Positions 3,862 to 7,130 of a DNA stretch of 9,421 nt are shown here, in pieces. The position numbers were made by a program, and so were the translations under genes. The notes below the pieces were generated by a model, which saw only the letters and a list, made by a program, of their open reading frames with translations, made no database searches and had not been told where the DNA came from. The number at the start of each line of letters is the position of its first letter. The first letter of the stretch is position 1. Source of the stretch: Lachnospiraceae bacterium (GTDB lineage: Bacteria > Bacillota > Clostridia > Lachnospirales > Lachnospiraceae); contig CAAEUM010000021.1 in the NCBI GenBank assembly GCA_900759225.1, positions 1 through 9,421 of the forward strand, read 5' to 3'.

Positions 3862-4416
3862 TTATAATGGAAGGCTTTTTACCACATCCCCATCCAGGGT
3901 AAGTATGGTAAAGACGCCATCCTCCAGAACGCCGTATGTATTGGGGTTTCCGCCCTTTGGAATGGATACGGAGCCAGGGTTTAATACGGTAATCATACCG
4001 GCCTCTGTTTCCACCCTCTCTGCCTTTAACAGATGGGTGTGTCCATGAACCAGAATGTCCCCCTCCCGCACAGGCGGAAGCTTCTCCTGGTTATACACAT
4101 GTCCGTGGGTTGCATAAAAGGTATGACCACAGGCTGATAAAAGGGCATAATCTGCCAGAATAGGGAAGGACAGCACCATCTGGTCAACCTCTGTGTCACA
4201 GTTGCCCCGCACTGCATAAATCTGATCCTTCAATGGGTTTAACATGGCAATGACTTCCTTTGGCGCATACTCCCTTGGAAGGTCATTTCGAGGGCCATGA
4301 TACAAAATATCTCCCAACAGTACCAGCCGGTCCGCCCCGGACTTCTCATAAATTTCAAGCAGCTTCCTGCAATAATATGCAGAGCCATGTATATCCGATG
4401 CAAATATCCATTTCAT
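3862..4416 (-). CDS. yfcE: Phosphodiesterase YfcE
   Basis: 184 residues, the same length as E. coli YfcE and recognisably similar along its whole length. It shares MKWIFASDIHGS at the start, HGPRNDLP with the following YAP near 40-52, AVRGNCDTEVDQM (68-80) and NPGSVSIPKGGNP (146-158). Metal-binding residues are complete: D8, H10, D36, the GNCD asparagine, H104/H106 and GHTH (125-128). E. coli YfcE is a Mn-dependent phosphodiesterase active on artificial bis-pNPP; its natural substrate is unknown. The ATG start has AAGGAG ten bases upstream. It is the first gene of the compact five-gene set and is followed almost immediately by the rRNA methyltransferase. No promoter is evident between it and the rhodanese gene. 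Cytoplasmic. Confidence 0.93.
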   Translation of the reverse strand: MKWIFASDIHGSAYYCRKLLEIYEKSGADRLVLLGDILYHGPRNDLPREYAPKEVIAMLNPLKDQIYAVRGNCDTEVDQMVLSFPILADYALLSACGHTFYATHGHVYNQEKLPPVREGDILVHGHTHLLKAERVETEAGMITVLNPGSVSIPKGGNPNTYGVLEDGVFTILTLDGDVVKSLPL

Positions 4417-5120: not shown

Positions 5121-5315
5121 TTAGAACTCGTAATCGTTTCTGGTGCTGCTCTGGCTGTTATTACGGCTGCCGCTCTGATTGCTGTTTTTGCTGCTGTTGG
5201 ATGCGCCGCCGCCCTGGCCGTTGTTTTTGCTGTTATTCTGGCTCTTGTTCTGATTGCTGTTCCTGCCGTTGTTGGAATTTTCCATGTCGTTATTCATGTT
5301 ATTTCTTTCTGGCAT
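5121..5315 (-). CDS. Small Asn/Ser-rich hydrophilic protein, candidate small spore protein
   Basis: 64 residues, of which 20 are Asn and 13 Ser, with Gln, Gly, Lys and Arg making up most of the rest; there is no Cys, Leu, Ile, Val, Trp or His, and the C-terminus is NDYEF. Low-complexity sequence of this kind should be disordered and soluble. The composition recalls gamma-type small acid-soluble spore proteins, which serve as amino-acid stores in Bacillus spores, but I see no clear repeat of that family and do not claim homology. ATG 5315 is chosen over an in-frame ATG at 5336 because AGGAGGT lies six bases before it. A sigma-G promoter match lies 40-70 bases upstream, and two hairpins with a terminator follow. 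Together these argue for a real gene expressed in the forespore. Confidence 0.75.
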   Translation of the reverse strand: MPERNNMNNDMENSNNGRNSNQNKSQNNSKNNGQGGGASNSSKNSNQSGSRNNSQSSTRNDYEF

Positions 5316-5355
5316 TTGAGTACCTCCTGAAAACATAAGTTTCTGGTTACTCTCC

Positions 5356-5386
5356 TAGTATGGCAGGACTCGCTTTAAGTTATTCA
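5356..5386 (-). promoter_or_regulatory. Sigma-G (forespore) type promoter
   Basis: The minus strand carries TGAATA (5386-5381) and CATACTA (5362-5356) separated by 18 bases, matching the Bacillus sigma-G consensus at essentially every position. The first three bases of the -35 are the TGA stop of the upstream NlpC/P60 gene. Transcription would begin near 5349, about 35 bases before the small gene's ATG. The same region has no sigma-A-like -35/-10 pair. Confidence 0.7.
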
Positions 5387-6094
5387 CCCCATTACATTTT
5401 TAATCTGAACCGGATTTCTGTAATTCCATGGAGAAACTGTGATGCCCGTTTCCTCACTGGAGGCATGCACCACCTGTCCCTCTCCTATGTACATGGCAAC
5501 ATGATTGATCCGCTTTCCGCTTCCATAAAAAATCAGATCGCCAGGCTGCATCTGTTCTGCGCTTACAGACGCTCCCTGTGCAGCCTGTCCCGTAGAAGAA
5601 CGGTTTAAGGAAATACCTGCTCCGTTCTGCAGCACATATTTTGTAAATCCGGAGCAGTCAACCCCTGTATGAGGGTCACTGCCGCCATAACGGTATCTCC
5701 CTCCCACAAACTGCATGGCATAATCCACTGCCTGCTGACGTTTTTCCTGCTCTGCATCTTCCCTGGCCTCCTGGCGTACCTGCTCAAGCATAGCCGCATC
5801 TGCCTCATGGAGAGACGCATTTCCGGAAACCGGCATATATCCTTCTGTATCATTTACCTGAACTCTCATCCAGCCATTTCCATAATCCTCCAGTACCTCA
5901 TAGCTGCTTCCCTTCTCAGCTGTAAAAAGCACCTCCTCACTGTCAAGGCTCTTATTAATATTTACGCTTTCTGCCGTAACAGTAGCAACATACGCATTTT
6001 CTGCTTCCTCTGCCATTGCCGTAAGGGGATTGGCCGACATAAGCATACCACAGACAATACCTGCCCGCATAAGTTTTATCAGTAAATGATGCAT
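5384..6094 (-). CDS. Secreted SH3b-NlpC/P60 peptidoglycan endopeptidase (copy 1)
   Basis: 236 residues. A signal peptide (about 1-28, ending TAMA before EEAE) directs export. A bacterial SH3 domain (about 34-92) for wall binding is followed by a charged helical linker (95-121) rich in Glu, Gln and Arg, then the NlpC/P60 catalytic domain (122-236). Catalytic residues are Cys147 in DCSGF, His198 in NHVAMYIG and His210 in VVHAS; the 51- and 12-residue spacings match those of E. coli Spr. Such enzymes usually cut the D-Glu to diamino-acid bond in stem peptides, allowing wall growth or daughter-cell separation. The ATG has AGGAG ten bases upstream. It has its own promoter (6166-6193) and a WalR-like box in the leader. 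No terminator separates it from the small spore-protein gene, so read-through is possible. Confidence 0.93.
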   Translation of the reverse strand: MHHLLIKLMRAGIVCGMLMSANPLTAMAEEAENAYVATVTAESVNINKSLDSEEVLFTAEKGSSYEVLEDYGNGWMRVQVNDTEGYMPVSGNASLHEADAAMLEQVRQEAREDAEQEKRQQAVDYAMQFVGGRYRYGGSDPHTGVDCSGFTKYVLQNGAGISLNRSSTGQAAQGASVSAEQMQPGDLIFYGSGKRINHVAMYIGEGQVVHASSEETGITVSPWNYRNPVQIKNVMG

Positions 6095-6135: not shown

Positions 6136-6160
6136 ATTACATAATTGTTACATTGTTACA
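6136..6160 (-). promoter_or_regulatory. WalR (YycF)-like direct-repeat box in NlpC/P60 copy 1 leader
   Basis: The minus strand reads TGTAAC (6152-6147), five bases AATTA, then TGTAAT (6141-6136), fitting the WalR consensus TGTWAH-N5-TGTWAH. A third half-site TGTAAC (6160-6155) lies two bases upstream. The main box starts 13 bases after the -10 hexamer, at or just after the start of transcription, a position more typical of repression than activation. Confidence 0.6.
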
Positions 6161-6165
6161 AATTT

Positions 6166-6193
6166 ATTATATCAGATTTCGGAAAGCCGTCAA
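6166..6193 (-). promoter_or_regulatory. Sigma-A-type promoter of NlpC/P60 copy 1
   Basis: TTGACG (6193-6188) and TATAAT (6171-6166) are separated by 16 bases on the minus strand. A-tracts just upstream (AAAAAA near 6204-6211) could serve as an UP element. The predicted start near 6159 gives a leader of about 65 bases. Confidence 0.8.
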
Positions 6194-6231
6194 TGAGTTT
6201 ATACTTTTTTAAGATATCATCCTCGCGGAGC

Positions 6232-6297
6232 GTTTTTGTTTTATAGGAAGAGCTTGTTGCACTTTAGTGTGACAGGCTCTTCCTATAAAACAAAAAC
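6232..6297. repeat. Long perfect palindrome between the two NlpC/P60 genes
   Basis: Arms 6232-6253 and 6276-6297 are exact 22-base inverted copies. The 22-base interval can pair further: in plus-strand RNA one U-G pair and eight more pairs (two of them wobble) leave a TTTA loop, giving about 31 pairs in all; in minus-strand RNA those wobbles become mismatches. The right arm contains the T-tract of the copy 2 terminator read on the minus strand. It could be a miniature inverted-repeat or REP-like element, or an inverted duplication of the terminator tail. No flanking direct repeat is apparent. Confidence 0.75.
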
Positions 6298-6318
6298 CTG
6301 CTGTCCTAAGACAGCAGG
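6287..6318 (-). terminator. Terminator overlapping the 3' end of NlpC/P60 copy 2
   Basis: Nine-base arms (6297-6305 and 6310-6318, minus-strand CCTGCTGTC and GACAGCAGG) enclose a four-base loop and are followed on the minus strand by TTTTTGTTTT. The TAG stop codon (6308-6306) falls at the loop, so the last codons form part of the terminator stem. Confidence 0.88.
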
Positions 6319-7025
6319 CTCACGATTTTCACAGGCTCACGATAATCATATACCGATGTCCTAATTCCTGTTTTTTCTGTAGATGCATGTACCACTTGCC
6401 CATTTCCTATATAAAGAGCCACATGATTAATCGAACCGTTCTGGCTGTAGAAGATCAGATCTCCCGGCTGCATATCCTCCTCTGCAACCTCCTGGCCAAA
6501 CCCGGACTGTCCGGCAGCCGAATGAGGAAGGCTGATGGATGCCATATGCTCCATAATATAGCGTGTAAACCCGGAGCAGTCTGCCCCCCGGTTAGGGTCT
6601 GTACCACCGTAAACATAAGGGTTTCCCACAAACTGAAGGGCAAATTCCACCGTCTGGCGGCGTTTCTTTGCCGACTCGTTCACCGTCTTTTTTGCCCGCT
6701 CTACCACAGTTGCATTCCCTGCTGTTTTAATATAGCCTTCACGGCCTCCGGTGCGGATTTTTACCCATCCTTTTGTACCGGAATCCAGCACCTCATAGGA
6801 CTGCCCCCGCTTTACCATTCCCTGGGTTTTGGAGCTTAAGCTGGCTGACTGATGTACCTCTACCTCCGGTGCTTCGATTGTCACCGTATAGGAGGAACGC
6901 GTCTGTACCTCTGCTGTCTTTACTGCCGCCTGGCTTTCCCCTGGCACTGCCACCGTAAGCCCTGCACACAGCATCATCATAGCACAGCCTCTGATCACCT
7001 GTTTTCCAATCTGTCCAGCCTTCAC
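6306..7025 (-). CDS. Secreted SH3b-NlpC/P60 peptidoglycan endopeptidase (copy 2)
   Basis: 239 residues, a paralogue of the neighbouring copy with the same architecture: signal peptide (1-33, ending ESQA), SH3b domain (about 45-105), basic linker (110-124) and NlpC/P60 domain (125-239). Catalytic Cys150 (DCSGF), His201 (NHVALYIG) and His213 (VVHAS) keep the same spacing as copy 1. Shared blocks include MQPGDLIFY and GQVVHAS. The open frame extends to a TTG at 7097, but that lies at the predicted transcription start; GTG 7025 is preferred because GGGAG sits seven bases upstream and a clean signal peptide follows. The linker is Lys/Arg-rich whereas copy 1's is Glu/Gln-rich, which may give different wall or partner affinity. 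It has its own promoter, a WalR-like box and a terminator. Confidence 0.92.
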   Translation of the reverse strand: MKAGQIGKQVIRGCAMMMLCAGLTVAVPGESQAAVKTAEVQTRSSYTVTIEAPEVEVHQSASLSSKTQGMVKRGQSYEVLDSGTKGWVKIRTGGREGYIKTAGNATVVERAKKTVNESAKKRRQTVEFALQFVGNPYVYGGTDPNRGADCSGFTRYIMEHMASISLPHSAAGQSGFGQEVAEEDMQPGDLIFYSQNGSINHVALYIGNGQVVHASTEKTGIRTSVYDYREPVKIVSLLS

Positions 7026-7071
7026 TGCAAATCTCCCATCCTTTGATATATTAAGATTTATCGCAATATTT

Positions 7072-7088
7072 ATTACATAATTATTACA
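7072..7088 (-). promoter_or_regulatory. WalR (YycF)-like direct-repeat box in NlpC/P60 copy 2 leader
   Basis: The minus strand reads TGTAAT (7088-7083), AATTA, TGTAAT (7077-7072), again fitting TGTWAH-N5-TGTWAH. It starts 13 bases after the -10 box, exactly as in copy 1, while the rest of the two leaders has diverged. Confidence 0.6.
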
Positions 7089-7101: not shown

Positions 7102-7130
7102 AGTATATAATTTTTTCATGATTTTGTCAA
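7102..7130 (-). promoter_or_regulatory. Sigma-A-type promoter of NlpC/P60 copy 2
   Basis: Minus-strand TTGACA (7130-7125) and TATACT (7107-7102) are separated by 17 A/T-rich bases. Predicted initiation near 7095 gives a leader of about 70 bases to the GTG start. Confidence 0.85.

Follow-up and report, generated by a model that had tools for sequence, protein, structure and literature searches.

The two-component system WalRK, essential for cell wall homeostasis, is best known from the Bacilli, in which it turns on NlpC/P60 endopeptidases; in Bacillus subtilis the NlpC/P60 genes lytE and cwlO are activated by the response regulator WalR. The same regulator acts both ways, as it also activates yocH and represses iseA and pdaC, according to the part of the study drawn upon here (PMC4478028). 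For the direct WalR regulon of Staphylococcus aureus, the excerpted account describes a 17-bp direct-repeat site with the motif TGTHH-N6-WGTNDD, associates sites upstream of the -35 element with activation and sites between or downstream of the promoter elements with repression, and finds no association of site orientation with the outcome (PMC10746227). In C. difficile, transcription of the NlpC/P60 gene cd630_27680, which has two predicted WalR sites approximately 100 nt before its start, drops about 4-fold upon overproduction of WalR, again as stated in the portion of the report considered (PMC9210968).

The locus described here shares features with each of these systems. As in the operators of B. 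subtilis WalR (YycF), both of its boxes fit TGTWAH-N5-TGTWAH exactly and NlpC/P60 and 3D-domain wall proteins are among the targets in relatives, but unlike those operators the box is located behind the -10 hexamer, nearly always in one orientation and with a constant A in the spacer (92 of 92 sites), at NlpC/P60 genes. The 17-bp direct repeat is likewise common to the S. aureus regulon, the excerpted motif of which is looser, whereas here the orientation is tied to the promoter side in NlpC/P60 leaders (PMC10746227). C. difficile provides the precedent of a clostridial WalR that, when overproduced, lowers expression of an NlpC/P60 gene for which two sites are predicted; there, in the part of the report used, the sites were predicted with the Bacillus motif, whereas here a tight promoter geometry and a wall-hydrolase regulon extend across many genomes (PMC9210968). 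The box, the regulator class, the position rule and the two-way action of B. subtilis WalR are already known. The novel elements are the tight geometry, the bias of 92 to 7 in box orientation behind the -10 hexamer, the constant A of the spacer and a mirrored arrangement that is largely restricted to a single branch of these hydrolases. In the literature searched, which covered few subscription papers, no report of such a WalR-box regulon in Lachnospiraceae was found. We propose, with a probability of roughly 0.7, that the boxes are conserved operators at which a WalR-like regulator binds behind the promoters, hinders RNA polymerase and lowers the output of the predicted wall hydrolases.

Two NlpC/P60 genes with WalR-type boxes in their leaders

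The window, as the whole analysed stretch of 9,421 bases from a Lachnospiraceae bacterium is called here, carries two tandem genes whose products both belong to the NlpC/P60 family, with scores of 92.6 and 90.9 bits against PF00877 (gathering threshold 23). The GTG start codon of copy 2, picked for its ribosome-binding site, is putative. A pattern scan of the whole window for the direct repeat TGTWAH-N5-TGTWAH returned exactly two exact matches, both on the minus strand and one in the leader of each gene (Table 1). The original prediction of two near-identical WalR-like boxes, differing at one base and each 13 bases behind a good -10 hexamer, is thereby confirmed. By chance, a mean of 0.04 such boxes is expected in the window, and two were reached in none of 200 shuffles. 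As the two proteins are only 42% identical, the shared box is not the trace of a recent duplication, which was rejected as its source.

Table 1. Coordinates of the two NlpC/P60 genes and of their putative control elements in the window
Feature	Position	Strand	Description
NlpC/P60 gene, copy 1	5384-6094	-	236 aa; NlpC/P60 domain, SH3 match below cut-off
NlpC/P60 gene, copy 2	6306-7025	-	239 aa; SH3_3 and NlpC/P60 domains
WalR-type box, copy 1	6136-6152	-	TGTAAC-AATTA-TGTAAT; starts exactly 13 nt after -10
WalR-type box, copy 2	7072-7088	-	TGTAAT-AATTA-TGTAAT; starts exactly 13 nt after -10
Predicted promoter, copy 1	6166-6193	-	TTGACG-16-TATAAT; 11/12 to consensus
Predicted promoter, copy 2	7102-7130	-	TTGACA-17-TATACT; 11/12 to consensus
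Extra half-site, copy 1	6155-6160	-	TGTAAC; 5 nt after -10, 2 nt before box
A+T-rich block	6198-6212	-	TTAAAAAAGTATAAA; upstream of copy-1 -35
Long inverted repeat, 32-nt arms	6232-6297	-	End of copy 2; adjoins terminator-like hairpin 6294-6321

Each of the two genes has its own predicted promoter and box. As the promoter scan of the region itself is not above chance (five promoter-like sites versus 3.4 in shuffles), the two promoters, which are the best of those five, rest on their quality and on their conservation in relatives. The gap from box to start codon amounts to 41 nt for copy 1 and to 46 nt for copy 2 with its putative start, which leaves no room for a second promoter in between. 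The hairpins between the genes likely insulate copy 2 from copy 1, with a regional terminator count (two versus 1.7) that is not above that of shuffles. The A+T-rich block upstream of the copy-1 promoter is possibly an UP element or the site of a second regulator.

Copy 1 is followed by a gene for a small protein of 71 amino acids rich in Asn, Gln and Ser (window 5121-5336) with no Pfam match, and a protein similar by eye is encoded behind the gene pair in Clostridium porci (L094, 221-412). Elsewhere in the window, two genes for YfcE/MJ0936-like phosphoesterases are located approximately 3 kb apart, one recognized by eye (113-628) and one by Pfam Metallophos_2 (3862-4416), and positions 1235-2677 encode a papain-type C1 peptidase that carries a lectin-like domain at its C-terminus (PF00112, PF18560) and is likely secreted.

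Conservation and geometry of boxes and promoters in relatives

The nearest named relatives are [Clostridium] citroniae and Clostridium porci, with 66% and 60% identity, respectively, over the copy-2 protein, and conservation was assessed in 17 genomes of the genus of [Clostridium] citroniae (copy-2 search with E up to 1e-40). The copy-1 gene is present in all 17, always with a promoter of the form TTGAC[GT]-16-TATAAT; 14 nt separate the -10 hexamer from the box, which matches the motif without mismatch in 11 leaders and with one mismatch in six. The third half-site that had been noticed ahead of the copy-1 box in the window is equally kept, as [CT]GTAA[CT] stands 5 nt after the -10 hexamer in each of the 17 orthologous leaders, which leaves 3 nt to the box there and 2 nt in the window. 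An orthologue of copy 2 was identified in 14 of the 17 genomes, always behind TTGACA-17-TATACT, and its box starts 8-13 nt after the -10 hexamer in all 14 leaders, with zero (six leaders), one (five) or two (three) mismatches. Across the 17 copy-1 leaders the mean information content per column is 2.00 bits in the -10 hexamer and 1.69, 1.80 and 1.70 bits in the three half-sites, as compared with 0.85 in the promoter spacer and 0.47 in the 30 nt after the box; the 20 nt before the -35 element reach a mean of 1.36 bits, with 8 of 20 columns invariant.

In the wider family, the comparison covered 80 leaders, each of a complete NlpC/P60 gene, from 80 loci and the window; three loci and the window contributed two leaders each, and in five loci the gene was cut off or missed by the simple open reading frame caller. 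TGTAAY-N5-TGTAAY occurs on the coding strand (forward) in 28 of these 80 leaders versus 3 of 489 other leaders of the same loci, and on the opposite strand (reverse) in 17 of the 80, the 489 other leaders having been scored on the coding strand only. Half-site spacers of four or six bases gave no match, and the half-sites thus keep a constant distance of one helical turn. A promoter was recognized in 69 of the 80 leaders. All 34 strict forward boxes are located behind the -10 hexamer, where they start 5-20 nt after it, and all 17 strict reverse boxes are located before the -35 element and end 6-17 nt upstream of it (8 nt in ten cases, 6 nt in four), such that among the strict boxes of these NlpC/P60 leaders the rule that the box faces the promoter is without exception. 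When one mismatch and weaker promoters are allowed, 37 leaders show the forward box behind the promoter, 19 the reverse box before it, two both and 16 none, with six leaders lacking a promoter; no leader among the 80 has only a forward box before or only a reverse box behind.

In a quick tree of the 80 proteins, 18 of the 19 sequences with the reverse box before the promoter fall, along with one boxless sequence, in one group, near which 21 sequences with the forward box behind the promoter and one further boxless sequence are found, and two changes between these states suffice. Both groups have a support value of 93, which does not reach the starred level, long rows are flagged, and the order of the states is not given by the tree. 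A group of 12 longer NlpC/P60 paralogues, in which no box was recognized together with a promoter, provides an internal contrast. Two NlpC/P60 promoters (L052, L061) are flanked by a box on either side and are possible intermediates between the two geometries.

Beyond NlpC/P60 leaders, 200 genomes of the family of [Clostridium] citroniae were searched with the composite pattern TTGAC-N17-19-TATNNT-N5-14-TGTAAYN5TGTAAY, with the pattern read backwards as control. The forward box behind the -10 hexamer was found at 92 sites in 72 genomes (control 0). Products were examined at 30 of the 92 sites, one per genome in listing order, and all 30 sites precede genes with wall-type domains, namely NlpC/P60 (22), Hydrolase_2 (four), 3D (two), choline-binding with a lysozyme-like domain (one) and SH3 as the only domain in the stretch examined (one), as expected of an operator that marks a regulon of envelope genes. 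All 92 sites have an A directly behind the first half-site, as the first base of the spacer, and the gap from the -10 hexamer, within the searched range of 5-14 nt, is 5-6 nt in 28, 7-8 nt in four and 9-14 nt in 60. Versus these 92, reverse boxes behind the -10 hexamer number seven, in seven of the 200 genomes (control 0); they are probably real but rare, because wall genes (3D, Hydrolase_2 twice, choline-binding, SH3, LytR_cpsA_psr) follow in six of the six cases with a called gene. The mirror pattern TTACAN5RTTACAN6-8TTGACA, with the reverse box before the -35 element, gave nine sites in nine of nearly the same 200 genomes (control 0), each ahead of a gene with SH3 and NlpC/P60 domains. Forward boxes before the -35 element were found at eight sites in seven of the 200 genomes (control 1), with mixed targets: Hydrolase_2 in three cases and one case each of choline-binding, no Pfam match, an acyltransferase-like product (by eye), a location inside a gene and no gene called downstream. 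A genome-wide rule that every box faces its promoter was rejected on account of these eight sites. A near-identical promoter with a forward box 7 nt before TTGAC recurs, in what by eye is a repeated stretch, at three loci of one genome (L088, L090, L092) and at one locus of another (L211).

The box without its promoter is not specific. Once the -35 element is dropped from the pattern, hand sums over the family genomes give approximately 222 sites versus approximately 49 in the control, the two orientations differ only weakly (122 versus 97 of the 200 genomes), and wall-type domains are found at 21 of 30 loci examined; the other nine have no near gene (L136, L137, L138, L155, L156), no Pfam match (L135, L151) or an unscanned product (L140, L141), and 14 further loci judged by eye were left out of these counts. 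The box alone occurs 11 and 8 times in the two nearest named genomes (control 2 and 3), several times inside genes. Wall genes follow five of the 11 boxes in the nearest named genome, namely two NlpC/P60 genes, a CAP gene with two overlapping sites and a 3D gene. In both nearest named genomes a conserved reverse-orientation box stands ahead of 3D-domain genes (L081, L082).

The candidate regulator and rival explanations

A WalR-like regulator is encoded in one copy in 191 of the 200 family genomes, as found by a profile search with up to 14 candidates scored per genome, and in 16 of the 17 genomes of the nearest genus, where all candidates were scored. In most loci examined its neighbours are a sensor kinase and, by eye, a ComEA-like gene. 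Of five regulators scanned against NCBIfam, four match NF040534 (YycF/WalR) best and the fifth matches RpaB best, by a margin of 1.2 bits (258.3 versus 257.1). The equivalog cut-off of 340 bits is reached in none of 20 genomes, with scores of 252-281 bits in the 18 that have the regulator (best 280.6), and for this reason the protein is called WalR-like and not WalR. Similarly, WalK (NF033092) is the best NCBIfam match of both kinases scanned, at 267.6 bits far below its cut-off of 725. Among solved structures the whole regulator matches RegX3 and MtrA best, YycF, VicR and WalR being present in the PDB only as separate domains, and its DNA-binding domain, analysed for L101, is nearest to WalR/VicR, the top five consisting of VicR, WalR, YycF and two unnamed regulators that share the recognition region. 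The recognition region differs from that of B. subtilis YycF in one residue, T to H, and GDVRTVDVH(V/I)RR(L/M)REKIE is kept in 16 sequences, one with A for the first V, in an alignment without L104 and L114, for which the caller had picked the wrong strand. With a recognition region nearly identical to that of WalR, the WalR-like protein is the inferred binder of the boxes. No box was found in the two walR loci examined.

The original prediction had assigned both hydrolases to a WalR regulon and named a walR homologue, a concentration of the motif at wall genes and conservation of the box in orthologous leaders as the points to check. Run on relatives, these comparisons of sequences speak for the assignment, with a WalR-like regulator in 16 of 17 genus and 191 of 200 family genomes, wall genes at 30 of 30 examined of the 92 promoter-plus-box sites, and the box kept in 17 of 17 copy-1 and 14 of 14 copy-2 leaders. 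That prediction had overlooked the mirrored geometry, the bias in box orientation and the wider regulon.

Direct repeats with a one-turn spacing are common binding sites of OmpR-type regulators, and between 12 and 88 OmpR-type matches were counted per genome in 20 genomes, which lends some weight to another member of this family, such as a MutS2-linked or VanR-like regulator, as the binder of the boxes. The MutS2-linked regulator, the second conserved one, has a similar recognition region, GDTRTVDVHIKRLREKI, but its nearest solved structure is SaeR, with VicR fourth, whereas the DNA-binding domain of the WalR-like protein is nearest to WalR/VicR. Also in favour of another regulator, some genomes carry boxes without a WalR-like gene: two (G003, G020) reach only 202 and 207 bits, the hit in G003 with VanR as its best match, and their NlpC/P60 leaders carry the box despite the missing gene (L004, L074); among the nine family genomes without a detected WalR-like gene, five have loose and two have strict promoter-box matches; and one genome of the nearest genus (G223) has both boxes with the gene not found. 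These cases may reflect incomplete assemblies or, in the 200-genome search, the limit of 14 scored candidates per genome. With a box equal to the published WalR consensus and with targets of the WalR-regulon type (NlpC/P60, 3D and wall hydrolases), a different OmpR-family regulator appears unlikely. That the WalR-like regulator activates, or merely tunes, transcription from the downstream box would agree with the activation of lytE and cwlO in B. subtilis and with the use of both promoter sides within the same family. We regard this as distinctly unlikely, since the gaps of 41 and 46 nt are too short for a second promoter, sites between or downstream of the -35 and -10 elements go with repression in the part of the S. 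aureus report considered (PMC10746227), and overproduced WalR lowers expression of the C. difficile NlpC/P60 gene that has two predicted sites, in the corresponding part of that study (PMC9210968).

As the box lies inside the predicted transcribed leader of both genes, it could alternatively work in the 5' end of the mRNA, as a protein or structure site, and not as a DNA operator. The mirror-image boxes upstream of the -35 element are outside any transcript from that promoter, the half-sites always stand one helical turn apart and no Rfam family above cut-off was found in the window; an RNA element, highly improbable, was set aside because of the position of the mirror boxes and the absence of such a family. 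Least credible of all is a chance similarity in A+T-rich leaders, for which the A+T-richness of the motif and the background of the search without -35 element (approximately 222 versus 49) could be adduced. Chance was rejected at the level of sequence by the shuffles (0 of 200 with two boxes), the contrast among leaders (28 of 80 versus 3 of 489), the conservation in 17 of 17 genomes and the zero control of the full-promoter pattern.

Proposed mode of action and significance

In the proposed repression by a WalR-like regulator, two subunits of the active protein would sit head to tail on the direct repeat, at about +7 to +24 relative to the predicted start, and the bound dimer would hinder promoter escape, such that less of both hydrolases would be produced as long as the regulator is active. 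That binding at this position represses is inferred by analogy with the position rule of S. aureus, as given in the excerpted report (PMC10746227). At copy 1 the conserved extra half-site likely seats a third subunit, which would place copy 1 under the tighter control. In the other branch of the NlpC/P60 family, with its mirrored box just upstream of the -35 element, the same regulator would activate; by the S. aureus rule, the geometry of the window predicts repression and the mirrored geometry activation.

A more far-reaching reading, put forward tentatively and with less than even confidence, is that in Lachnospiraceae a polarity-coded operator sets the sign of WalR control over NlpC/P60 genes and that one branch has flipped to the opposite sign. 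If so, the 5' half-site would face RNA polymerase in these genes, with those carrying the forward box behind the -10 hexamer repressed and those carrying the mirrored box before the -35 element activated. As the genes examined were wall genes in 30 of 30 cases, the composite pattern could be used to find wall genes in unannotated genomes, and the two mirror geometries within one gene family amount to a natural experiment in which the sign of control by OmpR-family regulators can be related to the position and polarity of the operator. If the geometry does mean switching off, WalK must likewise follow a different sensing logic in this large family of gut Firmicutes, and, should the polarity reading be true, the homeostasis of wall cutting would have been rewired to the opposite sign with the regulator and the box unchanged.
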